64,000 nt of DNA, taken from a virus. This document shows, piece by piece, positions 8,918 through 60,484 of this stretch (positions are counted from its first letter, which is position 1; the number at the start of each line of letters is the position of its first letter). Below the pieces are notes generated by a model. That model made no database searches and was not told the DNA's origin. It saw only the letters and a program-made list of their open reading frames with translations. The DNA lies in the IMG/VR virus record IMGVR_UViG_3300028840_004184, positions 1-64,000 of that record; one strand, 5' to 3'. The translations under genes were made by a program, and so were the position numbers.

Positions 8918-9364
8918 ATGATTAAGCCAACGATACACCATGATAATACAAGTGGGGTTATCAGGTTTAATACTCATTTGAATAAGCCCGTGATCTATAC
9001 AATGTGTAAAATGGAGCATGAGGCTTTTTTTATTAGTTATACGGCTGTAAATAATCTAGTTGTATTACCAGCACAAGTATCATCGGTTTGGCCTAAATAT
9101 TTGCAGGCATTTTTGTTTGGTGGTAAGAAAGTTAATGCTGATTATCGTGGCAACAGCTTTCATTGTGGTAAAGAGATATACGTTGCCGAGAATGTTGATG
9201 CGATTTTGCGAGGCGACGAGTATGAGTGGGTTGCTTTAGTAGATGTCCCTCATGATATTAGATGTGTGTATGTTAATTTAGATGTGTATGATGGTAAGAA
9301 GCATGTCAGGAGATTACAAATTGATACCTTTTTTGGGCGTAGCAGGGCAATAAATTATGAGTAG
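8918..9364 (+). CDS. Hypothetical protein, 148 residues
   Basis: The frame is open from 8873, but that upstream part is the terminator stem. The ATG at 8918 has AAGG about nine bases before it and is taken as the start. The product is beta-rich with many aromatic residues and ends in a basic stretch. It overlaps the LamG/PKD adhesin gene by eight bases, so translation is probably coupled. An accessory or assembly role for the adhesin is possible from position alone; no family is recognised. Confidence 0.7.
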   Translation: MIKPTIHHDNTSGVIRFNTHLNKPVIYTMCKMEHEAFFISYTAVNNLVVLPAQVSSVWPKYLQAFLFGGKKVNADYRGNSFHCGKEIYVAENVDAILRGDEYEWVALVDVPHDIRCVYVNLDVYDGKKHVRRLQIDTFFGRSRAINYE

Positions 9365-12179
9365 CTTGTCAGTTTATGATAGTAATCTGTTAATGTTTTA
9401 TAGGTTTGATTCACCTAGTGGTGGTGCTATTCAGAATCGTGCATATTACCGTCCTAGAACTCAGCCCGATGGTTCTGATTTGAATACTGATTTGGCTTGG
9501 TACGATAATCATATTGCTGCTTCTCCTGGTATTCCTGGTTATCATGCGTGGAAGTTGGTAGACTTGACTGAACTTCATGCTTCGGGTTTGGGTGAATTAT
9601 ATTTACCTGGTCAGTGGGGAAGTCCTAGCGGTAATGCATTTACAGACAATGGTCATCATTTGGCTATATCTGGCTTGTTGTATGATCATACTATGACGAC
9701 GAGCATATCTCATCTTCACAAGCTGAGGTTAGAGGATGATAGTGACGCTAATTTAGATGGTACTTCAATTGCACAAGCTATGGCTTCAGGCGATGTTACT
9801 TTTGGTGGATGGGTCAGGTCTTTTACGTATAAGCCTTTGACATATATGTCTATGATTGGTTTTACTCAGGTTAATACTGGGTTTAGTTCGCCATGGCTGT
9901 TTTTAGAACAAAATAATACTGGTGATAGAGACTTTGAATTAAATTTGGTTAATGCTGGTACTTTGACAACTGGTGCTGGGAAACCCTCTGGTAGTACTGG
10001 TGGTCTTCCTGGAGATATGAATGTATATAATCCTCCGTGGGGAGGATGGAACCACGTCGCGTTTTCTCTAAAGTATGGTGGTGATGGTGGGGGCATATAT
10101 GCTAGATCTTATTTAAATGGTCATCAGGTTGAAACAAGTAATAATGCTAATTGGGACGCGAAGAGGTTTGTCGCAAGGTTTTTCTATGTTGGTGGCTTGA
10201 ATTCTACTACTAATAGTGTTGGACAGGGGTGTACTGCATGGAAAGACTTTTTCTTGTTCGATCGCGTTTTATCTTCTGGTGAAATTTATCATGTTTTTAA
10301 TAATAGTATAAGTGAAACGCCAATATTAACAAGCCAGGATAATGATTTGCTTTTGTGGTATCGGTTTGTTGAGCATAGTGGAGTACCTGTCAGAAGCTGG
10401 GCAGCAAATACGCCGAACCAGGATCTGAGTGGTGGGTCACTTGATCCTTATCTTTATTGGCATGATTATCCACCAGATCCGATTTATGGTTTATTTAGAG
10501 TAGAGGCCGATTTGCCTGAGGCGTCTGGGGCGTGGTTTCCTTCGCAGTGGAATGCTCAGTATCCTGATCAGGTTAGAGTTTGTGCTTCTGGTAATACTAC
10601 TAATCCGTTCCACGGCATCCGTGGAACAAATATAGATCACTCTGATATTAGTCATGCTATTTCTTCTGGTAGTTTTACCATGTCCATGTGGGTAAATCCT
10701 AGATATTATTCTTCATACAGGGTCCCATTTGTTTGGAGCAGGGGTGATGAAGACACTGTTTCTATTGGATTGAATTGTACGAGTGCATCGCAAGTTAGAA
10801 TTAGATATAACGATGGTACTGGTAGCGATCACTCTTTGTATAGCACTAGTAATCCGCCGTCTGGTTATTTTTGGAATCATGTGTGTGTTGTACATCCCAG
10901 TGGTGGGTTTGACGGTTCTTCCGATACAGCCAGACTGTATGTGAATGGTAGTTTGGCAGGCAGTACTACTGATCCAGATTTCAATAGTCTTGCTGTGCCT
11001 TATTTGGTCAGTTTTTTCAATTACCATGATGAATGGTCAGATTCTCAATTTTTGGGTGGTATTAAGGATTTTACGCTTTGGAAGAGGACACTGGAGCCAC
11101 ACGAGATCCGCTCTTTGTTTGGTCGCGGTATTGATTTAATTTCAAGTAAGGCGAGTGGGACGATCGGCGGACATACGCTTGGTCGTACTAGGACATCTGG
11201 TGTATTCGGTGGATATATTGATGCGTGGGCTTATCAGGCTAGCGGTGTTTTTGGTGGTCACACGCTTGGTAGATGGCGTGGATCTGGTGTGCATGGCGGA
11301 TATGTTTTTTGTGGCAATAGGGTGTCTGGTGTACATGGTGGATTTATTTATTGTAGTGGTATAGGCTCTGGTGTCCATGGTGGATATTGTTTTGGTATTT
11401 TAAAAGCTTCTGGTGCTATAGGTGGTCGTACTTTTTCTGTGGTCAAGACTAGCGGAGCGTGTGGTGGTTTTGTTCATTGTGGTTTACAGGGGTCTGGTGT
11501 ATTTGACTCGTCTATGAGGGTCAGAGCAATTACGTTTTCTGATGTTGATGCTTTAGTAGAGGTTAAAAATACAATTAATAAGGATTTTGATGCCGAAATA
11601 GAAGTTTACAAAAACGAAAGACCTCCATTTGTAGCCATAGAGTATCCCCCACCAGAGATTGTTAGTGGTATACCACCTAGCAGTGTGTGGTTTGTAGGTA
11701 GTGGTGTCGCCGTGGACGGTAAGCAGATAGACAGTGCTAAGTATCTTTTCGGTGATTTAACATCTCACGCCAATGGTATTCCGTCTGGCAGCGACCAATA
11801 TGTTTCTACGTATACTTATGCTAATAGTGGTCTTTATATAGCTACATTGCGGGTTGTAGATAATAATGGGTTGGTTGGCAGCGACTCTGTTATTGTTGAT
11901 CTTGCTAGTGGCGTTCCGTTACCAGATGTTGAATTAACAGCTAGTCCACGTAGTGGAAACGCCCCACTATCTGTTGATTTTGATTATAGTGTTACTAGTG
12001 TACCCAATGGCGTAACTGTTACATCAGCTATTTTATATTTTGGTAATGGACAGTCAACAGTTAACCCAGATACTACCTATGTGTACAGAGAACCTGGGGT
12101 TTACACTCCTATATTGTGTATTTTGGATAGTAGGGGTATCATTACGTGTGATTCATTAACGATTGGGGTTAATAATTAA
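9357..12179 (+). CDS. Tail adhesin with two LamG-like domains, repeats and two PKD-like domains
   Basis: A 940-residue modular protein. Residues about 40-320 and 335-595 each look like a concanavalin-type LamG domain (for example GGWNHVAFSL, then a Gly-rich loop, SYLNGHQV and FFLFDRVLSSGEI near the end of the first). Residues 600-712 hold eight SG-x-x-GG repeats of 14-15 residues. Residues about 763-940 contain two PKD-like domains (YTYANSGLYIATLRVVD and YVYREPGVYTPI are the typical final strands). Such modules bind carbohydrates and act as spacers in extracellular proteins, so this is a good candidate for a receptor-binding tail appendage. About 30 Ser-Gly pairs are present. The stop overlaps the next start as TAATG. 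Confidence 0.85.
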   Translation: MSSLSVYDSNLLMFYRFDSPSGGAIQNRAYYRPRTQPDGSDLNTDLAWYDNHIAASPGIPGYHAWKLVDLTELHASGLGELYLPGQWGSPSGNAFTDNGHHLAISGLLYDHTMTTSISHLHKLRLEDDSDANLDGTSIAQAMASGDVTFGGWVRSFTYKPLTYMSMIGFTQVNTGFSSPWLFLEQNNTGDRDFELNLVNAGTLTTGAGKPSGSTGGLPGDMNVYNPPWGGWNHVAFSLKYGGDGGGIYARSYLNGHQVETSNNANWDAKRFVARFFYVGGLNSTTNSVGQGCTAWKDFFLFDRVLSSGEIYHVFNNSISETPILTSQDNDLLLWYRFVEHSGVPVRSWAANTPNQDLSGGSLDPYLYWHDYPPDPIYGLFRVEADLPEASGAWFPSQWNAQYPDQVRVCASGNTTNPFHGIRGTNIDHSDISHAISSGSFTMSMWVNPRYYSSYRVPFVWSRGDEDTVSIGLNCTSASQVRIRYNDGTGSDHSLYSTSNPPSGYFWNHVCVVHPSGGFDGSSDTARLYVNGSLAGSTTDPDFNSLAVPYLVSFFNYHDEWSDSQFLGGIKDFTLWKRTLEPHEIRSLFGRGIDLISSKASGTIGGHTLGRTRTSGVFGGYIDAWAYQASGVFGGHTLGRWRGSGVHGGYVFCGNRVSGVHGGFIYCSGIGSGVHGGYCFGILKASGAIGGRTFSVVKTSGACGGFVHCGLQGSGVFDSSMRVRAITFSDVDALVEVKNTINKDFDAEIEVYKNERPPFVAIEYPPPEIVSGIPPSSVWFVGSGVAVDGKQIDSAKYLFGDLTSHANGIPSGSDQYVSTYTYANSGLYIATLRVVDNNGLVGSDSVIVDLASGVPLPDVELTASPRSGNAPLSVDFDYSVTSVPNGVTVTSAILYFGNGQSTVNPDTTYVYREPGVYTPILCILDSRGIITCDSLTIGVNN
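11154..11492 (+). repeat. Eight tandem SG-x-x-GG protein repeats (42-base unit)
   Basis: Units start at 11154, 11196, 11241, 11283, 11325, 11367, 11409 and 11451. Seven are 42 bases (14 residues) and the second is 45. Each begins Ser-Gly, has Gly-Gly at positions 5-6 and usually an aromatic residue or His at positions 4 and 7; a degenerate ninth start (SGVF) follows at 11493. Codons for the conserved Ser and Gly vary between units, so the repeat is kept at protein level. The period suggests a thin beta-solenoid or rod linking the LamG and PKD parts. Confidence 0.9.
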
Positions 12180-15100
12180 TGGCTAATAATACTATATTAG
12201 TTAGCGGCGTTGGTGTGCCGGATTTTGCTATACCGTTTCCTAGCGGTCAGATTGATGCTGGTTATCCAGGATCTAATCTGTATGCATTTTTAGCCAGTGC
12301 AAATGCTAATTTTGGTTTTAATTTAACGCCTAATACTCTGGAAATGAATTTTATGCCTGTGCCTCGTGATGAGACTATATATCATGGTGCTAGTGGAAAT
12401 TTACCAACCGTCGGTATGTTTCTTGAGATGTTTATTGAGGATTTTTATTTTCGTGGTAGAATCAATCATGCTGATTATAATAATAGTGATGCTGGTACAA
12501 TTATACGTATTACTCTAGAAGATACAAGACGTTCTTTAGACAAAATAAAAATACACACAGAGGATCTTGGCGATAATGTACCTAGCGGTGTTGTGTCTAT
12601 AGGCAGAGCCTACCGTATTTTGCATGGTTTGACTGATGATGATGGTGCTGAGGTTGATGGGCTTGTTTTTGAATATAACGAGATTATGGATCGTGGGGCT
12701 ACATATAGTCAAATAATCGAAGCCTTACAGCTAGCTATTAATGAAAGACAAATTAATTTATCAATCAACCAAGTGCCTCCATTAAGTAAGCTTGAAGCTA
12801 ATATTGGTGGTACTATTGAGGCCTTGCGATTTAAATTTGATATGACAAGTTTAACAGAGGCCATAACGACCGTGTTGCAAGACTGTGCATACGATTGGTA
12901 TTGGAATATGAATACCAATAGTGTCTCTTTGATAAATCGTAAAGCTGCATTTGAATTGACCGAATCTAATTTAATGAGCCTAATTAATAAAGTGAGTGGT
13001 TATAGCGATGTGTCAGAGGGGACTAAGCGACTTGGTTTTGGCGAGGACGCCGTTCAAGAACCAACAAGGTTCCGTTTATTGGGTGGGCGACAGCAGGGTT
13101 TTATTAATTCGGAGTTATTGAGTCCTGTTGATGGTTTGGATACGTCGTCTCTTGATAATAATGTGACTTTTGTCCCGGCGTGGTCTGATATCAGTGTTGG
13201 ATTTTACGATGCTGATGGTTTTTATAGAACGTATACTCCCACAGATAAAGAATTACAAATGGCTCTCGCTGGTATTGAGCACTGGACTTATTTCAAAATC
13301 TATCAGTCTGAGCCAGCACCAGATGGGTTTGGCTTAGCATCAGATGTTGGGTCTATTGCAGCACAGCATTCGACTTTTCAAAGCAGATTTGATCCTTCTG
13401 AAACTTTGGCTGATATGGTTGCCGGTTCTGATGCAGATAATAGTTTGCGTATTATTAATAATCGTAGAGATGAAGAACATAATTGGGTGAATGATTTTTT
13501 TAATAGAGTAAATAATCATGCCCAGAGGCATTTCGGTAGATCATATGTTGCTGAGGGTATTGCCTATAATGAATCATCAGGTTTATTTAAGCCAATAGAT
13601 GCTGCCTGGTGCAACATAGAGAATCAAATAGAGGGACAAAGCGTTGGTGTCAGCGGATCTTTTGGTCCGTTTGTAGATGATTATGAGATCAATCGTTTAT
13701 TTGGTCCAGTTGCACCGTTTTTAACCGATGATTTTCGCGTATCGGCACACTGTGTACTCCCACCAGATACTCGTTATGGAGCGGATGGAGACCAGGCACC
13801 GGCTAGTTTTTCTGAGTGGACAGAAGACGCACCACCATTTAATCCATCTGGCAATGGCTATCATTACATACCGTGTTCTATTTCTGTGGTTGGAAGAAGA
13901 GTCAAAAATCCTCGTAGTGATGACTTGTATAGTTTTGAAGATTATCCTGATGGGACGCTATGGGTGCAATTGCCTACTATTGCTGGTTCGAAAAGCGAGG
14001 ATAGCGTGTTAGCTAATTTATCCACTTTAATCGAATTGAGCAGGAGTGCAAGTAGTCAGGGATTATTTGATGTTGCTAATCCAGCACAATTAATAGAGCC
14101 ATACAGTTCTTTAAGTGGTGTTGCTATTCCCGTTGAGTCACGTATACGCTATGGACAAAATTTCCCATCCCAGTGGGTTTTGGGCGACGAGCATTATCAG
14201 CGTGGTGAAGACGTTGTTGTTGATGATGCATTTGTTCCTTGGGGCTTTTATCCTGTTGGTAATGATACTTCGTTGGAGGTTATGACCAATAGGGCTGTGA
14301 GAAAAGTACAAGGACGCTTTGTTGACAATATATTTTCAAGATATGCTGATATTAGTCAGGTTGGATTGCCGACAGTTGGTTTTGATAGTTTCGCGGACCA
14401 GGGTGCCAGTGCTTCCGGAGTTTATGGTGAAAGATCCCATGGTGTTACAGAGCTTAATATTGTTATTGGACAGACTGGGTATGAAACAAGATATAAAATT
14501 GCGTCATATTTTGCTACATTTGGAAGAGAGGCCCCACTTGGTGAAAGACAAAGGACACAAGTTAATGGTATTTTACATCCGATAGATTATACTCTTTTAA
14601 CATTAACTAATCCTATCCCTGGTGATCCATCCTCACCAGCGGTAGCTGACTCTTTATATAGTATACCGCCTTCAGTAGGTGATAAGAAAACAGCACGTAG
14701 AGTAACAATCACTGAGGTAAATGATGTCTTTACGTTAGTCTACAAGAATAATCCAGCACTAGGTCCTATACAGGAACGTTATCGTGGTAAGACTGAAACT
14801 GGTGATTATGATGCACCTAATCCTAATCGAGGATCACATATCGATTATACAAATGGTGCTATATGCGTGGATGGTTTTTTGAATTACAGTGATAGGGCTA
14901 TGTATCATACGGATGATTACGAGCTTGCTACAGGCAATGTTGTCTATCGTTATTTCACTGGTGGTCGTAAATTCGGTGCTGGGAATATTGTCGATGTAAA
15001 AGAATACCTTGGTTATGATGGTACATATCATAGATATAACGTAGAGATGGTTCAGGGAGCGGGTCGTGCCTTAATTAATACTCCTCTCCTTAATGGTACA

Positions 15101-15439
15101 CTGAATATTAATGATAAAACTACGCTTGTTGCTGATGGCGGTGCTTCGGTTCAGCCGGGCAATGCACCGAGTGGTGTTTATCTTAATAGTGCCGGTGGCG
15201 GAGGAGGCACGCCGGTCATTATCCAGAGTATTACTAGTGCTGGTACATTGGACGCTTATGCTTATGCTCAACCGGTTAATGGCGATTTGGACCCGGATGC
15301 TACGCGTAGTGCTGTAAGTGGAGTACCATTCCCATATCCTCCTTATGCCCAAACTGGTGACATGGGGCTTTGGTCAACCACGTCAGATGGGAGAAATGTT
15401 ATTTATGTAAGCAGGTTACCGATTAGGAGTATCGACTAA
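12179..15439 (+). CDS. Large tail protein, possibly baseplate or tail-tip hub
   Basis: A 1,086-residue protein starting in a TAATG overlap with the adhesin gene. The first 280 residues (a segment FLEMFIEDFYFRGRI, later AYDWYWNMNTNSVSLI) have the alternating strands and aromatic spacing of tail hub proteins of the gp27/gpD type, but this is a weak resemblance. The C-terminal third is rich in Gly, Tyr and Asp with a Gly-rich stretch before residue 1,020. About twelve Ser-Gly pairs occur. Virion location is supported by size, composition and neighbours; the hub role is inference. Confidence 0.7.
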   Translation: MANNTILVSGVGVPDFAIPFPSGQIDAGYPGSNLYAFLASANANFGFNLTPNTLEMNFMPVPRDETIYHGASGNLPTVGMFLEMFIEDFYFRGRINHADYNNSDAGTIIRITLEDTRRSLDKIKIHTEDLGDNVPSGVVSIGRAYRILHGLTDDDGAEVDGLVFEYNEIMDRGATYSQIIEALQLAINERQINLSINQVPPLSKLEANIGGTIEALRFKFDMTSLTEAITTVLQDCAYDWYWNMNTNSVSLINRKAAFELTESNLMSLINKVSGYSDVSEGTKRLGFGEDAVQEPTRFRLLGGRQQGFINSELLSPVDGLDTSSLDNNVTFVPAWSDISVGFYDADGFYRTYTPTDKELQMALAGIEHWTYFKIYQSEPAPDGFGLASDVGSIAAQHSTFQSRFDPSETLADMVAGSDADNSLRIINNRRDEEHNWVNDFFNRVNNHAQRHFGRSYVAEGIAYNESSGLFKPIDAAWCNIENQIEGQSVGVSGSFGPFVDDYEINRLFGPVAPFLTDDFRVSAHCVLPPDTRYGADGDQAPASFSEWTEDAPPFNPSGNGYHYIPCSISVVGRRVKNPRSDDLYSFEDYPDGTLWVQLPTIAGSKSEDSVLANLSTLIELSRSASSQGLFDVANPAQLIEPYSSLSGVAIPVESRIRYGQNFPSQWVLGDEHYQRGEDVVVDDAFVPWGFYPVGNDTSLEVMTNRAVRKVQGRFVDNIFSRYADISQVGLPTVGFDSFADQGASASGVYGERSHGVTELNIVIGQTGYETRYKIASYFATFGREAPLGERQRTQVNGILHPIDYTLLTLTNPIPGDPSSPAVADSLYSIPPSVGDKKTARRVTITEVNDVFTLVYKNNPALGPIQERYRGKTETGDYDAPNPNRGSHIDYTNGAICVDGFLNYSDRAMYHTDDYELATGNVVYRYFTGGRKFGAGNIVDVKEYLGYDGTYHRYNVEMVQGAGRALINTPLLNGTLNINDKTTLVADGGASVQPGNAPSGVYLNSAGGGGGTPVIIQSITSAGTLDAYAYAQPVNGDLDPDATRSAVSGVPFPYPPYAQTGDMGLWSTTSDGRNVIYVSRLPIRSID

Positions 15440-15440
15440 G

Positions 15441-18400
15441 ATGACTATGGCTTCAGGACAGAGGCCGTTTGATTATGACAGACAGCCATTTCCATTCATT
15501 ATTCCAGAAAACACTGGTAATACCAGTGGTGCGATGAATCCATTCCCAGAATATGGGGAGCCTTATTTTATTTACGCTCATCACCTTGGTCAAGCCTGGT
15601 TTGCTAATTTAGCTCAGTTAAGGAGCTTGCCAGATGGTCATCCTGATCAAAATGTATATCCTGCAATAGACAGAAATTGTCGTGGTATTATCCATGTACC
15701 GTCCGGTCAGATAGATCATCCCCAGCTAATAGCCCCACATATTTTCGAACCAGACCCAAGTGGTAATGCGTGGTTGTCGATGACAGCTAGGGACGATACC
15801 GGCGATGTTCTTTTGCAAAATGTTTCAGCCCATATTCAAGTCGATACTTATGGCCATTATATTTCTTGGTTAAGGAGTATGATGAACAATATTTTTGCTG
15901 CTCAGTCGCTTGATTATGATAATAAAAGTATGGGCGAGATGCGTTATGATTATTTATTGGCTTATTTTCCTCGTAGTAGTGGTTTGTATTTTGACCCTAA
16001 TGCGACTGAATTTTTAGACATTAGTTTGGCTGAAGTTCAATATAACCCCTATCCTCGTATAGCTGGTGATCCTCCATTCCCCTATGTTGGTGATTATTAT
16101 TGGACGCGTTATGCTGGGCAGTGGGGCGGAGACGTTAGTGCAGATGATGAAGATTATAGATTTGTTATTAACGGTTATTTGTATTATGATAATTTATTGA
16201 GTACGTCTGATTATGGTATAAATTATAACATTTATAGGAATTATTTTTCTAGATATTCTTGGAGGGGGTCTCCAGCTAGATCGTCACCCCTAGATGATGA
16301 TGATTATATAGCTCTTTCTAGGGAGCTACTTACTAAGTTTGGAACTATCGATGTTTTTGGTCCTGTTTTTCCTTGTTGTCAATCTTTCGATGGTAGCTTG
16401 ACTTCTCCGCATAGCGGTGATGATAGTAAATATGAGGAACCTCCGTCTCAATGGTTTGTCGATGGTGCGGCCATGGGCAAGGAGCCTGGGCAGTATACTA
16501 TTGAGCAGTCTGATACTATATATAATAAATTCAGTGATGTTATATATCCTCTGGAAGCCGACATGGATGATTTTGATGACTTTATGGCGTTTTATTACTG
16601 GAATTATCCTTATCTGTCTGCTGGGTGGGTGTATGGTGGTTCTCCAAGAAACGTATCTTTGGCTGAGCATGCTTCTTTGCATGCACTGAATGATGCTGAG
16701 CCGTTGTTGTATGGATATATTCCTGGTGATATGCTTATAGGCTATATGGCATGGTGTAGTCAAGATAATGCCAATAGTATTAGAATAGATGGAGAAGGTC
16801 TTATTCCTAATTTGACACGGATGCGTATTTGTGATTTGTCAAGTCGTGATTACGATAAATGGGTATCTACGTCTGGTCTTGTGTATCATGCTACTGGTGA
16901 TTATATTGTGCAGTCTGGTAGTAGAGAAGTCCATAATAGCGTAGACGCAAGAAATGTAAACGTTAGTTCACACTGGGGACGTAACCCAGCAACGAAAAAT
17001 GGTTTCCCATCGTATTCTGGTGAGCCAGTTCGTTATATTCTTGATGAAGATTTCACTGCTGTACAAACAAGCGGCTATGTACCGAGTATTAAAGATCGTA
17101 GGGCATGGTTTCCAATGCCTGATTGTAATAACCCTAGTGCCGCGAGTGGTGAACAGGAGTTGATATTTATAGAACCTATCTTCGCTGAACGTAGGAACGT
17201 TAAGAAAATATTGGTACAGAATGATACAAGTTATAGTAGTCGTGGTGTTTGTAATGCCGCTGCTCCTTCGGGGTTTTTGAGTGTATGGCCGTCTAATCCG
17301 TTGTTCCAAAACGGTAGCGGCGTTGGTTATCATGTGATGGATAAAGGCATTTGGATGCGTAAACATCCAGCAAGTTGTGGGATGACGTTGGTGTCTCCAT
17401 ATAATGGTCAGGAGTTGTTATTTAAGAGAGCGGAAGATAAGATACAAACATGGGGGACTCAGAATGATACATGGCGTATAGAGGTTAGACCTGGGAATGA
17501 CTTTCATTATCCTGAATATTATAATACAGCAGTTAATGCGTGGCGGAAAAATATGTTTTTTCGTGATCCTTATGCTATTAAAGAGGAAGTGACGCCGCAA
17601 GAGACCCATGCACAAGTCCCACAGTTGGCTTTACCGCATAATACATATTTGAGAGAATTCACTGGTGAGAGATCCTATGTAGCCTCTTGGTATAGGAACA
17701 AGGAGGAGCAAGTAGCTCATACTGACGGTACTTATACTATTTTTAATTTAGCAGCACAAGTGTCGTCATTTGATGATTATAAGATTTCGCGAGAGGATTA
17801 CTTGGAGCCAGATAATTACAATTTTTGGTGGCATGATGAGGTTGATCCAACTAATCCGCCTGATCTTCCTGTAATGTCTGACTGGGGATCTACTCGCATT
17901 TATTATCCTATCGATAGTGGTTATTGGCATAAAACAAGGGGCGGGAATGCTATTCCACCTAGCTTTGTTCCGCAGGGGGGTGTCGGCTTAGATCAAACGC
18001 CTGATATATATTTATTACACCCTCACGCCAAATATTCTCCTTTAAGATCACAGAGTAGTTTAATTGGTACTTTTACTGCTGGAAGAACATCCACGATTAA
18101 TGATGATTTTTATGGTCTAGAGGGTGATGATGCTGGGAAAAATAGTTTGACGTGTGATGTTGATGTCTATATAGCAAATAAGCCCTATTTGCAATTTGAT
18201 ATTCCTGGGTTGACTATACAGCGTAGCGGTGAAGCTACGATAGATATGTCTCATAGTATGCTTGAGGGTATTTTAAAAGAAGGAACCCTGAAGCCAGGGT
18301 TCAGTATTACACAGAGACGTGAGTGGGTGTTGCGTACTACCACCTATCGTTGGTTTGATGGAGAGGAAATCAATAACGAGGAAGTTGTAGATGTTTATCA

Positions 18401-19490
18401 ACATCAAGTTGCTTTTGATGGTTTTTTAATTATGCGACTTGAAATGTATGGTTTACAAGAAAGCTCTAAGGGGGGTATAGTAGAGGGATGGGGAAGGCTA
18501 TATGAAACGGCGTCTGCTGGTGTAACCGAGACTATAAATCCGGATAAAGATTGGCCTAATATGTCAACTGATTATGTCAGACCGGAAAATCCAGGAGAAA
18601 CCCAAGAAGAAGATAGAGTCAAGTATTCTTTATATCATGTTGATTATTGGTCTTCGAGTCAATATGGATGGGGGTCAGTTCCTAGATATAGACCATATCA
18701 AGCAGATCATATTGGTCAGGACCAGTATGATTCTATGAACGGTTCGCGTTTTTTCAGAGTGTGGTTTGATCCCAATGACGATTCTATTGTTATTCATTGC
18801 GAGGACGACTTGCATGATCTGAAGAGATATGGGCTATTGCTTGGTAATAGTCTTTATAGATATGATGTTGTGAATAGAGAAAGTGGTGGTATCGCGAATG
18901 TATTGCATTCCACCAGAGAAGATGAAGACTTTCTCCCCGGCATGAATCCAGGCGATCTGCCTGGGTGGGACCCGTATGTACCAGGACCACCAGGGGCTGC
19001 TACTAGGCGTGCTATGAATCAGGATTATCAAGATGCCAAGAAATGTGTTATGAGTTTTACGTGGGTTGAAGATGAATTAGTCGCTGCTGTGGAAATGTAT
19101 GATCAGCAATATGGTTCTACTATTGTTAATCATGGCAGGAAATGCGAGATCGCTACACTAGATCCTGATACTGGTATTTTTGACAATGAAAGAGCCAATA
19201 TGATTTTCGCTATGCCAGGCAGGATGTTTACTAAACAAAGACCTTTGCTCGAAGACAGGGCTGTGACTACCCCTGGTACTGCGTTTGTTGAGTTGCCAAT
19301 TTGGGATTATATTGATCCATATCAGTACGAACATTATCGTTACGGTGGGTGGCTTAACGCATTTGCTGGATATGGTGATATTGTTATAGAAGACGATCCT
19401 GATTATGGGGTTACTCCATTTTCAATTTTTGTTTATTCGTCAGAAGTTAGCGATATGTGGCCAAAGATAGTGTATACTAATATATCATAG
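15441..19490 (+). CDS. Very large tail protein, 1,349 residues
   Basis: Begins one base after the preceding stop, with AGGAG at 15425-15429; an ATG at 15447 is an alternative start. The product is exceptionally rich in Tyr, Trp, Asp and Pro, without coiled coils, signal peptide or membrane segments, and contains about thirteen Ser-Gly pairs. It shares the short string PSGQID with the preceding protein. It is probably a tail-fibre or tail-tip protein, but no domain is recognised. A perfect eight-base-pair hairpin at 18283-18302 lies inside the coding region without a T-tract. The end of the gene contains the promoter-like motif at 19468. Confidence 0.7.
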   Translation: MTMASGQRPFDYDRQPFPFIIPENTGNTSGAMNPFPEYGEPYFIYAHHLGQAWFANLAQLRSLPDGHPDQNVYPAIDRNCRGIIHVPSGQIDHPQLIAPHIFEPDPSGNAWLSMTARDDTGDVLLQNVSAHIQVDTYGHYISWLRSMMNNIFAAQSLDYDNKSMGEMRYDYLLAYFPRSSGLYFDPNATEFLDISLAEVQYNPYPRIAGDPPFPYVGDYYWTRYAGQWGGDVSADDEDYRFVINGYLYYDNLLSTSDYGINYNIYRNYFSRYSWRGSPARSSPLDDDDYIALSRELLTKFGTIDVFGPVFPCCQSFDGSLTSPHSGDDSKYEEPPSQWFVDGAAMGKEPGQYTIEQSDTIYNKFSDVIYPLEADMDDFDDFMAFYYWNYPYLSAGWVYGGSPRNVSLAEHASLHALNDAEPLLYGYIPGDMLIGYMAWCSQDNANSIRIDGEGLIPNLTRMRICDLSSRDYDKWVSTSGLVYHATGDYIVQSGSREVHNSVDARNVNVSSHWGRNPATKNGFPSYSGEPVRYILDEDFTAVQTSGYVPSIKDRRAWFPMPDCNNPSAASGEQELIFIEPIFAERRNVKKILVQNDTSYSSRGVCNAAAPSGFLSVWPSNPLFQNGSGVGYHVMDKGIWMRKHPASCGMTLVSPYNGQELLFKRAEDKIQTWGTQNDTWRIEVRPGNDFHYPEYYNTAVNAWRKNMFFRDPYAIKEEVTPQETHAQVPQLALPHNTYLREFTGERSYVASWYRNKEEQVAHTDGTYTIFNLAAQVSSFDDYKISREDYLEPDNYNFWWHDEVDPTNPPDLPVMSDWGSTRIYYPIDSGYWHKTRGGNAIPPSFVPQGGVGLDQTPDIYLLHPHAKYSPLRSQSSLIGTFTAGRTSTINDDFYGLEGDDAGKNSLTCDVDVYIANKPYLQFDIPGLTIQRSGEATIDMSHSMLEGILKEGTLKPGFSITQRREWVLRTTTYRWFDGEEINNEEVVDVYQHQVAFDGFLIMRLEMYGLQESSKGGIVEGWGRLYETASAGVTETINPDKDWPNMSTDYVRPENPGETQEEDRVKYSLYHVDYWSSSQYGWGSVPRYRPYQADHIGQDQYDSMNGSRFFRVWFDPNDDSIVIHCEDDLHDLKRYGLLLGNSLYRYDVVNRESGGIANVLHSTREDEDFLPGMNPGDLPGWDPYVPGPPGAATRRAMNQDYQDAKKCVMSFTWVEDELVAAVEMYDQQYGSTIVNHGRKCEIATLDPDTGIFDNERANMIFAMPGRMFTKQRPLLEDRAVTTPGTAFVELPIWDYIDPYQYEHYRYGGWLNAFAGYGDIVIEDDPDYGVTPFSIFVYSSEVSDMWPKIVYTNIS
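19468..19485 (+). promoter_or_regulatory. Promoter-like motif TAGTGTATA-N4-TATAT
   Basis: TAGTGTATACTAATATAT spans the last codons of the 1,349-residue gene and lies 35 bases before the next start. It shares TAGTGTATA and TATAT, in the same order and spacing within one base, with the motifs at 8555-8571 and 63003-63020. No convincing -35 box is present, so a phage-specific or alternative-sigma promoter is more likely than a housekeeping one. Confidence 0.4.
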
Positions 19491-52489: not shown

Positions 52490-53458
52490 ATGAATTTACT
52501 TATCACTGGAGCTAATGGTTTCGTGGGTAAACACTTGGTCAAACTTCTCGCAAAGAAGAGGCCAGATATTAAGCTTTTTACACCATCACACGATACGTTC
52601 GATTTGCTCGATTCGTGTCATTTGTATGGATATTTAGACACATTTAAGATTGACCATATCGTACATTTGGCCGCCCGAGTTGGTGGTATCGGTGCTAATC
52701 AGAGTAAACCCGCGACTTTTCTCTATGATAATCTTTTGATGGGTATGAATATCGTACACGCAGCTAATAGCACCCCAGGTGTTAAGAAGCTTATTAACAT
52801 AGGGACAATTTGTAGTTATCCAAAACATACAGAGGTGCCATTTAAAGAAGAGAATATTTGGGATGGCTACCCCGAAGAAACAAATGCTCCTTATGGTATA
52901 GCTAAGCGTGCTGTGATGGCATATGCCATAGCATCTAATTTTCAGTACGGTACTAATGTAGTTAATTTGATGGCTGTTAATATGGCTGGTGAATATGATA
53001 ATTTTCATCCTCTCACATCACATGTTATACCAGCTATAATTTTGAAGATCGATAAGGCAATGGATGATGGTGATTCCGATATCAAATTATGGGGTACCGG
53101 TCAGGCAACCCGTGAATTTTTGTATGCTGGTGATTGTGCTCGTGCAATACTAATGTCTTTGGAGACTCATGTGGGGCCTGATCCGGTGAATATTGGTACA
53201 GGCAAAGAGATTACTATTCGCGTTCTCGCAAACGCTATTAAAAGTTTTATGAAGTACCAGGGGAATATTATGTTTACCTCTCAGGTATCTGATGGTCAAC
53301 CAAGACGTTGTTTAGATGTTTCTAGAGCTAAAAAGATATTTGGTTTTAAGCCCGAGGTAGATTTGTCAGAAATGATTCGGCGAGAAGTTCAATATTATTA
53401 TAGTCTTAAAGAACAGAATCCCGAATTAATAGATTCGTATAGAGCAATGATTAGCTAA
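52490..53458 (+). CDS. fcl: GDP-L-fucose synthase
   Basis: A 322-residue short-chain dehydrogenase. ITGANGFVGKHL is the NAD(P)-binding loop, VHLAARVGGIGAN is the signature after strand 4, and NAPYGIAKRA carries the catalytic Tyr135 and Lys139. LWGTGQATREFLYAGDCA is a hallmark of GDP-L-fucose synthase. The enzyme epimerises and reduces GDP-4-keto-6-deoxymannose to GDP-L-fucose. The dehydratase that makes its substrate is encoded ten bases downstream. Confidence 0.9.
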   Translation: MNLLITGANGFVGKHLVKLLAKKRPDIKLFTPSHDTFDLLDSCHLYGYLDTFKIDHIVHLAARVGGIGANQSKPATFLYDNLLMGMNIVHAANSTPGVKKLINIGTICSYPKHTEVPFKEENIWDGYPEETNAPYGIAKRAVMAYAIASNFQYGTNVVNLMAVNMAGEYDNFHPLTSHVIPAIILKIDKAMDDGDSDIKLWGTGQATREFLYAGDCARAILMSLETHVGPDPVNIGTGKEITIRVLANAIKSFMKYQGNIMFTSQVSDGQPRRCLDVSRAKKIFGFKPEVDLSEMIRREVQYYYSLKEQNPELIDSYRAMIS

Positions 53459-53467
53459 GGAGGATAA

Positions 53468-55546
53468 ATGAAGACTGCTGTTATAACAGGTATAACTGGT
53501 CAAGATGGTTTTTATTTGGCGTCTTTGCTGTTAAGTAAAGGATATGTGGTTGTTGGTATAAAAAGGCGTACTTCTACCCCTCATGATCAAAGGCTAAGGA
53601 TGTTGAAGCACCAGAATCTTTTTTTGGTTAGTGGTGATGTAACTGATTCGGCTTCAATACAACGTATAGTGACTAAGTACCAACCAGATGAGTTTTATCA
53701 TTTGGCGGCAATGTCTCACGTTGGTTTTTCGTCAGAAGCACCTCAGATTACTCAGGATATTAATTGTGCTGGTACAGTGAATACTCTTGAAGCTATTAAG
53801 GATTTAAAGCCAGATTGTAGGTATTATTTCGCGGCGAGTTCTGAGATGTTTGGTAACCAGCTTGAAGAATCTAGTCTTGTCGCTCGTGCTCCGTCTACTA
53901 TCAGGTTGAATGAATTGTCCAAAATGGAGCCTCGCTCGCCTTATGGTGCATCAAAGATTTTTGGTTTTGGTATGACGAAACACTATAGGGAAGCTTATGG
54001 GTTATTTGCGTGCAACGGCATACTTTTCAACCATGAGTCAGCGTTGCGTGGTGAAAATTTTGTTACTCGTAAAATAACAAAATCTATAGCAGATATTGTT
54101 GCTGGTCGTAGTGACAAAATAACGCTTGGTAACATAGATGCTAAGAGAGACTGGGGTTTCGCGGGTGATTATTGTATCAATTTAGACGTGCCCATTCTTA
54201 CAATAAATGGCTGGAAGTATTATGACGAAATAAGTATTGGTGACATTATTGTCAATTTTGATACTAAAATGAATAGATTGTCTCGTGACAGGGTGTTGAA
54301 CAAAGTTGTTAAGAGTAGTAGCGGCGACAAGATTTTGTTTACTGGGCGGGGGCTACACTTAAATGTTACTTTGGACCATAGGATGTATTATCAGCGTAAG
54401 TCTACTAAATCTAAAGGGGGTTGGTCTGACTGGAAGGTTATGATGGCACAAGAGTTATATGATGTACTTAATGATAAATCATTAAGGACTAAGTATGATT
54501 ATAGATTGCCGCATTTTCAGGATTATTATGTTGGCGATAGTGGTAATTGTTCTATGTTTACTGATGATGAATTATATTTAATTGGTGCATTGTTGGCAGA
54601 AGGCAGTTTAGATAGTCGTTTTTTTAATGGACGTAAAGTAAGTATATCTCAGTCTTTTGTTGCTAATGAAAGTATTTTAGATAAGATTATTGATATTGTT
54701 GATCGACTTGGCTTGATATATAGAAAGAGAGTCAGAAACGATGGTGTATATGAATTAATCTTTGATGCTCAGAGTAGTGACATTATTTTGTCTCGTTATT
54801 TTGATGAAGATAATGTTCATATTATGCCCAGATCTCTGTATGATGTCGATAGTAGACAGGCTGCTATTATTTTTGGTGCGTTGATGGATTGTGATGGATC
54901 TTGGGGCAGCATGTCGTTTTCATCCAAGAGGTCTTTATTGGCTGTTGATTTTCAAACTATTGCACATTTGGCTGGATATAGAACAACGGCAGTAAAACAA
55001 TTAGAGAATGGAATGTTTCGTGTTGGTGTTATTGCTAAACGTAAGAAATATTCCTATATTCAGGATGTTGAAAAATATAATGATAGTCATGGTAAAGTAT
55101 GGTGTGTCACTACTAGTAATCAAACAATTGTGACTCGCGATCATGGCTGTGTAAATATTTCTGGTAACTGTCGTGCTATGCATATGATGCTTAATCATCA
55201 TGAACCTGATGATTTTGTGATAGCCACTGGCGAATGTTATTCGGTAAAAGATTTTTTAGTTAAGGCGTTTGGATGTGCGGGTTTTGATGAATCGCCCCAA
55301 GAGTTGATTGATAAGTATGTTGTTTTCGATGAGAGATTTCTTCGACCATCTGATATTCATATACTGAAAGGTGATTCTACTAAAGCTAGAAAAATATTAG
55401 GCTGGAAGCCAAAAATGACATTTAATCAATTGGTTTTATCAATGGTTCAGTATGATCAAGAACAAGGCGTCGAAGGTAGGAGCGGTCGTCATTTTGTTTT
55501 TGATGCATTGGGATCTAAGAGTTTCGTAGAGGAAGGTATAAAATGA
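53468..55546 (+). CDS. gmd: GDP-mannose 4,6-dehydratase interrupted by an intein
   Basis: A 692-residue precursor. Residues 1-235 and 568-692 join into a 360-residue dehydratase: GITGQDG (8-14) binds cofactor, YHLAAMSHVGFS follows strand 4, SSEMFG and SPYGASK (Tyr159, Lys163) form the catalytic site, and VIATGECYSVKDF and LGWKPK close the fold. Between DWGFAGDY and CRAMHMML, where Gmd proteins run on without a break, lies a 332-residue intein. The mature enzyme converts GDP-mannose to GDP-4-keto-6-deoxymannose for the fucose synthase encoded upstream. Function requires splicing. AAGGAGG precedes the ATG. Confidence 0.92.
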   Translation: MKTAVITGITGQDGFYLASLLLSKGYVVVGIKRRTSTPHDQRLRMLKHQNLFLVSGDVTDSASIQRIVTKYQPDEFYHLAAMSHVGFSSEAPQITQDINCAGTVNTLEAIKDLKPDCRYYFAASSEMFGNQLEESSLVARAPSTIRLNELSKMEPRSPYGASKIFGFGMTKHYREAYGLFACNGILFNHESALRGENFVTRKITKSIADIVAGRSDKITLGNIDAKRDWGFAGDYCINLDVPILTINGWKYYDEISIGDIIVNFDTKMNRLSRDRVLNKVVKSSSGDKILFTGRGLHLNVTLDHRMYYQRKSTKSKGGWSDWKVMMAQELYDVLNDKSLRTKYDYRLPHFQDYYVGDSGNCSMFTDDELYLIGALLAEGSLDSRFFNGRKVSISQSFVANESILDKIIDIVDRLGLIYRKRVRNDGVYELIFDAQSSDIILSRYFDEDNVHIMPRSLYDVDSRQAAIIFGALMDCDGSWGSMSFSSKRSLLAVDFQTIAHLAGYRTTAVKQLENGMFRVGVIAKRKKYSYIQDVEKYNDSHGKVWCVTTSNQTIVTRDHGCVNISGNCRAMHMMLNHHEPDDFVIATGECYSVKDFLVKAFGCAGFDESPQELIDKYVVFDERFLRPSDIHILKGDSTKARKILGWKPKMTFNQLVLSMVQYDQEQGVEGRSGRHFVFDALGSKSFVEEGIK
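54173..55168 (+). mobile_element. Intein with LAGLIDADG homing endonuclease, inserted in gmd
   Basis: Residues 236-567 of the precursor. Block A starts at Cys236 (CINLDVPILTINGWK); block B has T-L-D-H with His304. Two LAGLIDADG-type motifs are YLIGALLAEGS (Glu378) and FGALMDCDGSW (Asp476), both keeping the acidic residue needed for cleavage. Block F is VWCVTTSNQTIVTRDHG and block G is CVNISGN, ending in Asn567, with Cys568 as the first C-extein residue. The penultimate residue is Gly instead of the usual His, a known but less common variant. The element looks complete and may home into intein-less gmd genes. Confidence 0.92.
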
Positions 55547-56268
55547 ATGAGCAATTTTCTGATATTGATATTGAGAAATTTCATGATGCAAAACAGCAGA
55601 AGCGTACTGTTGTGTCATTGGATGATGGTCAGGTTATAGAATTCGCGAGGATGTTACAGCGTCAGGCTCCTCCTGGAGATTTTAATCTGAGGTTTAATAT
55701 GTCGCCAGATGAGATAGAGCGTCAACGACATACCCTAGGGCTTATAAACGAAGATACTATTGATAGTTTTTTGAAGGCTATTGATAGTAGACAACCAGAT
55801 TTGGATCGGGAAAGGGAAATAAAAGAAGAGGATGCCAGGAGACAGAAAAGATTGGATGAACTTAATTCTTCTAGGTTTGTTAATAATGTTAAGAAGACTC
55901 CTTCACGCAAGAAGACGTTTAATAGAAGCGTGAATGAACAACAAAAAGATCTAGACGCCATGAATGATGCTAAGCACGGCGTTAAACCCAGGATGAAGTA
56001 TAATAGTGTTCAACATTATAAAGAGGTCACAGGTAAGAGATTCCGTAGGAAGCCGTCTGAAATACAAGAGGGGTTAAGTATAGAAGAGGCGTTCGAAAGA
56101 AGATTCGAAGAACCGTCTTTTCGGATTCCTGAAGACCAAGAAGAACAATTTAAGCTGGATTCTAGGCTTGGCATTAATATGTTGTGTAGTAAGTATGGTG
56201 CTAAAAGATCTGAGATTGCGGCTGAGCTTCGCAGACTTGGTGTCGATTTGGATATGTTGCCGCGATGA
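55543..56268 (+). CDS. Hypothetical charged protein, 241 residues
   Basis: Starts in an ATGA overlap with gmd. It is rich in Glu, Asp, Arg and Gln, largely helical, and the last 30 residues (NMLCSKYGAKRSEIAAELRRLG) resemble a helix-turn-helix or nucleic-acid-binding element. Overlaps the next, HTH-encoding, gene by four bases. Function unknown; DNA binding is plausible. Confidence 0.65.
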   Translation: MNEQFSDIDIEKFHDAKQQKRTVVSLDDGQVIEFARMLQRQAPPGDFNLRFNMSPDEIERQRHTLGLINEDTIDSFLKAIDSRQPDLDREREIKEEDARRQKRLDELNSSRFVNNVKKTPSRKKTFNRSVNEQQKDLDAMNDAKHGVKPRMKYNSVQHYKEVTGKRFRRKPSEIQEGLSIEEAFERRFEEPSFRIPEDQEEQFKLDSRLGINMLCSKYGAKRSEIAAELRRLGVDLDMLPR

Positions 56269-57161: not shown

Positions 57162-57462
57162 TTTGTATAAAGTTAAGGGATTCAGGGGACCAACACTTAT
57201 ACCCATGATATGTCCGAAATGTGAAAAGCGTAGGATGTATAGGCCTGCCGGGCACCTAATATCAACTAATAAAGAGCTTGCTATAGATGGTAAAACAGAG
57301 CGTCTTATTGATGTGTGTGCTATATGTCAGCAAAAATATAAAGACATGGACGAAAAATATATGAAAAAGCAGGTTAGAGAGGCGAAGAGAGCTATCGAAG
57401 ACAGAAAGAGTCTTGATGGTACGGGCGTTTCTATAGAGGATACCCTTAATAATGGCGACTAA
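57142..57462 (+). CDS. Small zinc-binding protein
   Basis: A 106-residue protein overlapping the preceding gene by twenty bases. CPKC and CAIC, about 43 residues apart, form a likely zinc site, followed by a charged helix. It overlaps the FAD oxidoreductase start by eleven bases. Function unknown. Confidence 0.65.
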   Translation: MKEKKPSLYKVKGFRGPTLIPMICPKCEKRRMYRPAGHLISTNKELAIDGKTERLIDVCAICQQKYKDMDEKYMKKQVREAKRAIEDRKSLDGTGVSIEDTLNNGD

Positions 57463-58579
57463 TATCAATTATTGGTATGATACAACTAATGTAAGGGTGA
57501 AGATGAGGGCTGGTTTGCCTCGCAATAATACAGATGTAGTTATTATTGGTGGTGGGATAGCTGGTCTCAATACATTACATTGTTTGTTATCTAGAGGGAT
57601 AGATGCTATTTTGTTAGAAAAAAACGATGTAGGATTCAAGGCAAGCGGCAGAGCTAATGGCAGCGTCGGAGTTCCTTCCCGTATTGCTAAATATCCATGT
57701 TCTTTTGACGATCTGTATGGTATGGTTAAAACCAATAATAATATTCTTAGAAGAATGATTCAAACAGAAGGCATGGACTGTCATTTGGATATGTGTGGGG
57801 AATTCCAAATATGTACTGACGATCAGTCTGACAAGATGGTCGAGTCGGATGTTCATAGAGCTATTATGCATATGAATAAGGATTTATTGGATGGCATCGT
57901 TCCTAGTAAGGTGTTCGATGGTGGCTTATTTATGCCCGTGTCTTTTATGGTGAATAGTTATCGTTTGCTTTATTGTTTGGTGACTAAGTGTGAATCTTCG
58001 GGAAGCCGTATTTTTAGTCATATAGATGTTAAGAAGATAACACCACTTAAAAAAAGCGTTAAGATTACCCTGGATGATACAAATGTAATAAAGTGCAACA
58101 AGGTTGTTGTATGTAATGCTGATTTGGCCAAGAAGTTTGTTGATAACGACATATTAAGTGAGGCTACATTATATGGTGGATGCAGCCCTACTTTGCCGCT
58201 AGGTAAATGTTATACTTTTCCACCTTCGCCCATATATATATTAAACGATAATGTTAGATTGAGAATATATGGACAACGTTTATTTGTTGATGTGTTGGAT
58301 GGGCGAGATGTTATAGATGTTATGCCTAAAATATATTCCTATTTTAGTCATATTGCTGGCATAAATTTAGAATATGAGTGGTCAGGCAGAGTGGTTAATA
58401 CTAAGGATGGGCTTCCTTTGATTGGTGGTACACGTCATAGTAATGTTTATTTGAACACAGCGTTTGGGTATCACGGTTTAAGTTTTGCCTTTTTGGGTGG
58501 ACATATTATTAGTGATTGTATTATTAACGAAGTCAATGATCATAAACTTTTGTATCCTGGTCGTTTTGAAAAGGAGTAA
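57452..58579 (+). CDS. FAD-dependent amino-acid-oxidase-like enzyme
   Basis: A 375-residue protein of the DAO family. VVIIGGGIAGLNTLHCLLSRG (split at residues 30-48) is the FAD dinucleotide loop, followed by LLEKNDVGFKASGRANG, the usual G-x-x-A-S-G-R-N-G element. The C-terminus has DGLPLIGGT and GYHGLSFAFLGG, the second FAD contact. Related enzymes oxidise glycine, sarcosine or amines attached to RNA or DNA. Its place before ribonucleotide reductase and dCMP deaminase suggests nucleotide or base modification rather than catabolism, but this is inference. Confidence 0.78.
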   Translation: MATNINYWYDTTNVRVKMRAGLPRNNTDVVIIGGGIAGLNTLHCLLSRGIDAILLEKNDVGFKASGRANGSVGVPSRIAKYPCSFDDLYGMVKTNNNILRRMIQTEGMDCHLDMCGEFQICTDDQSDKMVESDVHRAIMHMNKDLLDGIVPSKVFDGGLFMPVSFMVNSYRLLYCLVTKCESSGSRIFSHIDVKKITPLKKSVKITLDDTNVIKCNKVVVCNADLAKKFVDNDILSEATLYGGCSPTLPLGKCYTFPPSPIYILNDNVRLRIYGQRLFVDVLDGRDVIDVMPKIYSYFSHIAGINLEYEWSGRVVNTKDGLPLIGGTRHSNVYLNTAFGYHGLSFAFLGGHIISDCIINEVNDHKLLYPGRFEKE

Positions 58580-58588
58580 TGTATATAG

Positions 58589-60484
58589 ATGGAACTTAGA
58601 GGACTGTCGCGAGATGTTTTTATGGACAAGTACGCCGCTCCAGGCGAAAAAGAATGGTGCGAACTATCAAAACGCGTATCTCATAATATAGCCTTAGCCG
58701 AAGGTGGTAATTACAATAAGTGGGTTGATCCGTTTTTTGACATTATAAATAATATGGACTTTATACCCGGCGGGAGAATATTGTTTGGTGCTGGTAGAGC
58801 GAATCAATCGCTACTCAATTGTTTTTCGCTACAATTTGAGGATAACGTTGAATCTTTAGGCAGGGGGCTAAGAGATGTTTATTTAATATCTTGTCAGGGG
58901 GGCGGAATTGGAATAAATTTCTCAAAAATCAGACCCAAGGGAGACCCAATACAGAATATTCCTTTTTCTGCTCCAGGGGTTGTATCTGAGATTAGAAAAA
59001 TTAATGTGATAGGCGAAGAAGTAAAGGGTGGAAAAAATAGACGCACAGCCTTATTGGCTGTTTTAAACGCAGACCATCCTGATATCTTAGATTTCCTGCA
59101 TGCTAAGTTAGATCTAAGTCAGTTAAATAATTTTAATATATCTATCGGAATAACGAATGAATTTCTCAAGTCGGTTCAGAAAAATAAAGAATGGCGTTTT
59201 AAATTTAACAACAAAGATTACAATGTATATAGTGTAGATAAAATTCCATTTGGTGACAAGAAGAAAGAAGTCGTCCAGGTAGTAGCTCTTAACGAAGAAG
59301 ATGCTATTGGTCGTGCCCGATATGCATGCAAAGATAATGCCGCAGACGACTTTAAAAATGCACGTATAGCTAAATATATGGCAAAAGATTTATGGAATAG
59401 GATTATAGAAAACTCGTGGCGGTGTGGTGATCCTGGGTTATTTAATCTTGATCTTGTGAATACACACACAACTGTTAGTTATTTTGAACGTCTTGATCAG
59501 TGCAACCCATGCGGAGAGATACCTTTACCACCCTATGGTTCTTGTTGTCTTGGTTCCATCAATTTAAATAATATGTTTAACCCCAGAACCAATGATGTTA
59601 ACTGGTCCAAGTTGAGTCGGACTATTAAAATGGCGGTTAGGTTTCTTGATGATGTTTTATCAATCAATAACTATCCTATTTCATTAACAAAAGAAGTTAG
59701 TTCAAGATCGAGACGAATAGGGCTTGGCGTCATGGGTTTGCATTATTTGCTTATTAAGAAGAAATACAGGTATGGTGATGATAAGTGTCAAGAGTTTCTT
59801 GAAAGATTATTTATGAAGATCCGTAACGAAGCCTATATTGCGTCTACAGAATTGGCTGAAGAAAAAGGCGTTTTCCCCGCGTTCGATGTCGAGGCATATC
59901 TTAAAGAAGAGTTTATTAAACATCTTCCTTCGCGAGTTACAAGACGGATCAAAAAATGCGGTATAAGAAACGCCACTCTGTTGACTATTCCTCCCACTGG
60001 GACTACTTCCATAGTTGTGGGTGTATCGTCAGGTATTGAGCCTATATTTGCCCCTGTTTATAAAAGGAGCTATAGGGACCCAGAAGATGCTTCTGTGTGG
60101 AGATCATCTATTGTTGTAGATAAATTATTTAAAGAACTATATGAAAACGGACAAGACGTTAGTCATATTATAGGGGCACATGACGTAACACCAGAGGAGC
60201 ATTTGCAAGTTCAGGCAACAGTACAGCAATTTTTAGACTCTTCGATAAGTAAAACAATTAATGTCCCAGAAAAGATAAGCACAAAACATTTGTCTGATAT
60301 AGTTTTCGAATTTATTCTTGGGCTTAAGGGTGTGACAATTTATCGTACCAACAGCAGAGGGCAAGAACCATTGATACCGATAAAAATAAAAGACGACAGT
60401 CATATGCAACGTCTTCTTAAGAAGGCTAACGAAAATGGTAGTAATTCTATAGATACATGTAAAAGTGGGTCTTGTGAGCTATGA
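58589..60484 (+). CDS. nrdJ: Class II (B12-dependent) ribonucleotide reductase
   Basis: A 631-residue protein. Cys78 (LLNCFSLQ) and the CNPCGE motif with Cys308 are active-site cysteines; GSCCLGSINL, PPTGTTS and GVTIYR complete the catalytic barrel, and the C-terminal CKSGSC (Cys624, Cys629) is the redox tail. No small subunit (NrdB) gene follows, and the ATP-cone is absent, which fits the adenosylcobalamin-dependent class II type. It reduces ribonucleotides to deoxynucleotides without oxygen requirement. The host must supply cobalamin. ATGA overlap with dCMP deaminase. Confidence 0.87.
   Translation: MELRGLSRDVFMDKYAAPGEKEWCELSKRVSHNIALAEGGNYNKWVDPFFDIINNMDFIPGGRILFGAGRANQSLLNCFSLQFEDNVESLGRGLRDVYLISCQGGGIGINFSKIRPKGDPIQNIPFSAPGVVSEIRKINVIGEEVKGGKNRRTALLAVLNADHPDILDFLHAKLDLSQLNNFNISIGITNEFLKSVQKNKEWRFKFNNKDYNVYSVDKIPFGDKKKEVVQVVALNEEDAIGRARYACKDNAADDFKNARIAKYMAKDLWNRIIENSWRCGDPGLFNLDLVNTHTTVSYFERLDQCNPCGEIPLPPYGSCCLGSINLNNMFNPRTNDVNWSKLSRTIKMAVRFLDDVLSINNYPISLTKEVSSRSRRIGLGVMGLHYLLIKKKYRYGDDKCQEFLERLFMKIRNEAYIASTELAEEKGVFPAFDVEAYLKEEFIKHLPSRVTRRIKKCGIRNATLLTIPPTGTTSIVVGVSSGIEPIFAPVYKRSYRDPEDASVWRSSIVVDKLFKELYENGQDVSHIIGAHDVTPEEHLQVQATVQQFLDSSISKTINVPEKISTKHLSDIVFEFILGLKGVTIYRTNSRGQEPLIPIKIKDDSHMQRLLKKANENGSNSIDTCKSGSCEL

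Follow-up and report, generated by a model that had tools for sequence, protein, structure and literature searches.

A probable homing intein in the GDP-mannose 4,6-dehydratase gene of a metagenomic phage, with same-site alleles in viruses and cells

Introduction

The gmd gene of a metagenomic phage, encoding GDP-mannose 4,6-dehydratase (Gmd), carries a long in-frame segment foreign to the enzyme, raising the questions of what the segment is, whether the host protein survives it and what keeps it in place. The window, the whole stretch of 64,000 nucleotides that was analysed, is part of a 170,410-base metagenomic virus record. An earlier note on this DNA read the segment as an intein with a homing endonuclease, a reading on which anatomy, homology, profile, fold and comparison with empty sites agree. 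We put the probability at about 0.93 that it is, as sequence and structural models predict, a mobile intein of class-1 type carrying a LAGLIDADG homing endonuclease, kept in phage gmd by homing.

Results

Boundaries of the insert

The open reading frame at 53468-55546 on the plus strand encodes 692 residues in one frame that is open throughout. Its homology to Gmd covers residues 2-236 and 569-665, with none between, and both Pfam GDP_Man_Dehyd (E=3e-102) and NCBIfam TIGR01472 gmd (E=2e-102) match it in two stretches. In a PDB alignment with the solved Gmd 2z1m, residues 2-235 pair with 4-227 and residues 569-665 with 229-336, which leaves one residue, the equivalent of 228, for the junction. 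The insert lies between Tyr235 and this equivalent of 2z1m residue 228, here a cysteine. It occupies 54173-55168, or 332 codons, beginning with TGT (Cys) and ending with GGT AAC (Gly-Asn), followed by TGT (Cys+1); the protein reads CINLDVPILT...VNISGN, after which the C-extein opens with CRAMHMM. The frame is split into 235 residues of N-terminal Gmd, 332 of intein and 125 of C-terminal Gmd. The insert coordinates given in the earlier note are exact to the base.

The N-extein (Gmd residues 1-235; 53468-54172, plus strand), delimited by the Pfam and NCBIfam gmd matches and the alignment to 2z1m, holds the Rossmann NAD(P) half, the SSE motif, Y159xxxK163, NHE and RDWGFAGDY. The C-extein (55169-55543, plus strand), delimited by the second Pfam stretch and the PDB alignment of residues 569-665, holds the remaining 125 residues. 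The catalytic motifs SSE and YxxxK are intact, Y159 and K163 are invariant in our Gmd alignment, and the full-length homology with S/T-x-E and YxxxK identifies the host as a GDP-mannose 4,6-dehydratase. Dozens of intein-less Gmds were compared, and the viral ones (~330 residues) run straight through the insertion point. As in class 1 inteins, removing the in-frame insert restores the host protein exactly, judged against 2z1m and the intein-less Gmds. A long match at another locus (L007) was considered as a second carrier and rejected: it consists of an uninterrupted Gmd and, after it, a further epimerase-like gene.

Intein anatomy and splicing residues

The intein (54173-55168, plus strand) comprises a class-1-type splicing domain with an embedded LAGLIDADG endonuclease, its exact boundaries being drawn from same-site alleles; tblastn matches spanning residues 1-332 and an AlphaFold2 model searched with Foldseek agree with this assignment. 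Residues were compared in two alignments, one of 12 same-site alleles, the window's included, and one of 19 relatives. Block A, CINLDVPILTINGWK, with the nucleophile Cys1, lies at 54173-54217; C1, L9, T10, G13 and K15 are invariant in the 12 alleles. Block B, around NVTLDHRMYYQ (54353-54394), contains T66-x-x-H69, the histidine being invariant among the relatives. The two LAGLIDADG motifs are YLIGALLAEG (54572-54604), with the catalytic acid E143, and IIFGALMDCDG (54866-54898), with the catalytic acid D241; E143 and G144 in the first, and M238, D241 and G242 in the second, are invariant among the alleles. Block F, KVWCVTTSNQTIV (55094-55132), has W310-C311 with cysteine at position F:4, and C311 is invariant among the relatives. 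Lastly, block G and the junction VNISGN|C (55151-55171) place Asn332, preceded by G331 and with both residues invariant, directly before Cys+1. All of these features lie on the plus strand.

C1, H69, E143, D241, C311, G331 and N332 are invariant across the 12 same-site alleles. The Cys1, TxxH, paired LAGLIDADG motifs, terminal Asn and Cys+1 listed in the earlier note are all present. The Cys1 nucleophile and Cys+1 in the window and every same-site allele, together with T66 and H69 of block B, are those of a class 1 intein. At F:4, aspartate is the commonest residue in inteins and cysteine the second (PMC4031507). A class 3 intein was considered and rejected because, despite the cysteine at F:4, Cys1 is present and invariant.

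The penultimate residue is glycine, in place of the histidine that usually assists splicing (PMC4031507), and the earlier note had remarked on this end as odd. It could mark a degenerate intein that has lost splicing or splices poorly, leaving the phage Gmd inactive. We think this very improbable, since Gly-Asn is terminal in all 19 relatives, across many host proteins, the splicing domain is under purifying selection (below) and the SSE and YxxxK motifs of the host are intact. Furthermore, the phage intein of Bethlehem gp51, which also has a penultimate glycine, splices completely, and replacing the glycine with histidine slows it (PMC5050341). As the alignments have it, ending in Gly-Asn is normal for this subfamily and no anomaly, and the intein is genuine and probably splicing-competent. 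Two related viral inserts (L202 and L210) end in Gly-Gln instead of Gly-Asn (STMWCGQ, then S or T).

Relatives and fold

As sole query, the window intein returned no significant Pfam, NCBIfam or phmmer/PDB match, so its identity rests on relatives and fold. A tblastn search with the insert matched 211 phage records, 186 of them covering at least 80% of the query; among the matches listed, the best span residues 1-332 at 24-26% identity, and their hosts are ribonucleotide reductase, DNA primase/helicase and methylase genes as well as unannotated ORFs. Each of the five relatives retrieved starts with C and ends in GN, with C, S or T as the next residue. This end-to-end alignment with inserts in unrelated phage proteins, and the intein-less Gmds that run through the site, argue that the insert is not a chance feature. 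A profile built from the 19 relatives matches PI-PkoII (8e-10), over both the splicing and the endonuclease parts, the AceL NrdHF intein (1.6e-9) and other inteins. Pfam recognizes LAGLIDADG_3 in 16 of these relatives and Intein_splicing in five.

The AlphaFold2 model of the intein (pLDDT 92.2, pTM 0.90) has the Hint (splicing) fold by Foldseek comparison with the PDB, where the first thirteen matches are inteins with homing endonucleases, the best including TliVMA (1.2e-15), PhoVMA, PI-SceI (2.5e-12) and PI-PfuI. The next matches are I-DmoI structures, and this fold, with E143 and D241 in all 12 alleles, identifies a two-motif LAGLIDADG endonuclease with its acidic residues. A model of the whole precursor (pLDDT 83.5, pTM 0.52) does not settle how the intein is placed relative to Gmd.

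Phage genes have been reported to carry in-frame endonuclease insertions that have no splicing domain, and one in ShiLan has been argued to be a read-through homing-gene insertion (PMC11855218). That the Gmd insert is of this kind, or an intron, is scarcely credible given its conserved splicing blocks A, B, F and G, its combined intein and LAGLIDADG fold, and the freedom from internal stops of every same-site allele. An intron was also rejected because Rfam gave no match across 53000-56000, even at E<=1. In mycobacteriophage Dorothy, the methylase insert (NC_041855.1, 46269-47249; L171) matches the intein family end to end, with the form C...GN|S, and may correspond to the ShiLan domain or to the intein proposed in PMC9957025.

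Same-site alleles in viruses and cells

Scanning viral contigs for DWGxAxDYC yielded 116 loci, nearly all of them Gmd, with a few unrelated proteins (e.g. L079 and L167). Most have no insert and a native cysteine; five (L056, L097, L099, L109 and L137) run on into the intein. Searching viral contigs with the intein alignment returned the same contigs and added L189 and L193. The same-site intein thus occurs in seven further viral contigs, the alleles L191 and L192 being identical. The contig of L188, the closest Gmd intein, has two more intein-profile matches in one 1096-residue ORF (G007:C1:1333-3432).

The same search of genome contigs found five loci, all Gmd and all at the same site, in an uncultured archaeon, a Patescibacteria MAG, a Woesearchaeota MAG and two Omnitrophota MAGs. 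Around the Woesearchaeota and archaeon loci we read the neighbours, by eye, as sugar-nucleotide and glycosyltransferase genes, so both have the appearance of polysaccharide loci of cells and not of phage contigs. By alignment, one Gmd site is occupied by an intein lineage common to viruses and to archaeal and bacterial polysaccharide loci. Carriers are rare. Sampling 285, 380 and 371 genomes from three phyla turned up the element in the seed genome and in no other, and none of the records in the isolate phage collection covers 80% of the Gmd-intein precursor.

The +1 residue is valine (43) or isoleucine (3) in a set of 46 intein-less viral Gmds assembled without regard to it, whereas the window and each of the eleven other distinct carriers have cysteine there; a change from valine to cysteine takes at least two base changes. 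Some 110 intein-less viral loci (L052-L167), nearly all Gmd, have cysteine exactly at +1, which means that a Gmd with this residue is tolerated. Such alleles could represent permissive targets, or else the scars that lost inteins have left; the set was selected for cysteine and so is a lead rather than a result.

Mobility and selection

Protein identity is 64-76% among the five cellular inteins and 49-64% among their exteins, as expected of homing, and GC content is 0.32-0.37 in the inteins against 0.40-0.53 in the exteins. The window intein is 58 and 57% identical to L188 and L189, with exteins at 48 and 43%, which weakly suggests recent homing here too. In many viral pairs intein and extein have diverged to a similar extent, and clear signs of recent homing are for this reason mostly confined to the cellular group. 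Carriers are scattered over the Gmd tree, which requires 8 changes in all; well-supported branches force no fewer than 5 of these. All five cellular inteins fall into a single supported group. The corresponding Gmd proteins are not all together: those of four carriers cluster with moderate support, while that of L214 sits among intein-less viral Gmds instead, making L214 the clearest case of transfer. From these comparisons, the intein is probably mobile.

In both the splicing and the endonuclease parts, dN is 0.14-0.46 and dS at least 1.2, pointing to purifying selection on both, measured only roughly because dS is saturated in most pairs.

Other intein sites in Gmd

A second site, NHE^S(PRRG), has an insert starting with cysteine directly after NHE in L163 and 15 further viral contigs; where the far junction lies on the contig, Gmd resumes at the serine of SPRRG. 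The ends of these inserts (L163, 9584-10756, and L173-L187) vary among HN, GN, AN and SN. One viral Gmd, on the minus strand (L177), has two inteins, one at the NHE^S site with a VHN end and another at a third site, FYQA^STSELFG, with an SGN end. The NHE^SPRRG and FYQA^STSELFG segments line the Gmd active site in the SDR fold. Conservation at the Tyr235 site is unexceptional within Gmd, 28% of windows along the protein being as conserved, against 3% and 5.5% for the other two sites, so the argument that inteins occupy the most conserved stretches holds better for those two. With three separate positions invaded in viruses, Gmd stands out, at the level of sequence, as an intein hotspot of sugar metabolism.

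Genome setting

Directly upstream of gmd is a gene for the next pathway enzyme, a GDP-L-fucose synthase-like protein (Fcl; 52490-53458, plus strand), which matches NF047922 with E=2.2e-78 and 264 bits, below the curated cut-off of 500. Several glycosyltransferase genes also lie upstream, and from these neighbours the phage Gmd probably serves a fucose-type glycan.

Searching the whole genome with the intein profile revealed, outside the window, a second intein of the same subfamily (G000:143408-144433, minus strand; L217), hosted by a 774-residue ORF of the RtcB RNA ligase family and ending FVTGN|C. Within the window, three consecutive large ORFs (940, 1086 and 1349 residues) downstream of the tape-measure gene, at 9357-19490, had no PHROG match, and a DAO-family FAD-dependent oxidoreductase (57452-58579) lies beside the ribonucleotide reductase large subunit (58589-60484).

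Discussion

We propose that, after translation, Cys1 would attack the carbonyl of Tyr235, the N-extein would move to Cys+1, and cyclisation of Asn332 would release the intein. The product would be a 360-residue Gmd with cysteine at position 236, predicted to feed the adjacent GDP-fucose synthase. The excised intein would cut intein-less gmd at RDWGxAxDY^C, the proposed cleavage site being the DNA for RDWGFAGDYCRAMHMM, and repair would copy the intein into the cut alleles. The element would thereby be kept by homing between viral and cellular gmd genes and not by service to the phage.

Could splicing instead act as a switch, with the precursor held back so that GDP-fucose appears only in certain conditions? 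Because the RDWG..DY segment of Gmd is broken by the insert, an unspliced precursor would probably lack activity, and some inteins are reported to respond to oxidative stress (PMC6195587). We saw no conditional feature in the Gmd intein, its sporadic distribution fits a selfish element, and its nearest tested analogue, Bethlehem gp51, splices to completion (PMC5050341); a switch seems quite unlikely. It is also unlikely that delayed precursor splicing times the supply of GDP-deoxyhexose during infection or surface-glycan synthesis. The suggestion in the earlier note that GDP-fucose supply is conditional on splicing is speculation, and we favour an intein kept by homing.

The earlier note also called a sugar-nucleotide enzyme an unusual host. 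Our literature search found no description of Gmd as an intein host, and PMC11467894 and PMC8528832 mention inteins and Gmd separately; sugar-nucleotide hosts as such have a precedent in the UDP-glucose 6-dehydrogenase intein listed for Halobacteria (PMC4071816). What is new here is Gmd as host, together with the allele, the kind of element being already known. The known hosts of viral inteins, hitherto replication, packaging and nucleotide genes, now include a gene for glycan-precursor synthesis. One insertion site common to viruses, bacteria and archaea makes exchange between viral and cellular sugar genes traceable, and inteins with a penultimate glycine and cysteine at F:4 are added as candidate splicing tools.

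Among known systems, the haloarchaeal intein (PMC4071816) likewise sits in a sugar-nucleotide enzyme, in another enzyme family and on an archaeal chromosome; the likeness is one of host. With the Gmd intein as reference, PI-SceI, PI-PfuI, TliVMA, PhoVMA and PI-PkoII share with it the splicing fold and, embedded in this, a LAGLIDADG endonuclease with two motifs, at 10-15% identity in structural alignments; the Gmd intein differs from such inteins in its penultimate glycine in place of histidine, its cysteine at F:4 and its host. The Bethlehem gp51 RDF intein (PMC5050341) resembles it, by its published description, in the penultimate glycine, phage host and endonuclease domain, and differs in host protein and insertion site. 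Inserts in the ribonucleotide reductase, primase/helicase and methylase genes of phages of Shigella, Salmonella, Pseudomonas and Mycobacterium belong to the same subfamily end to end and share the xGN end, at 24-26% identity and in other host proteins.
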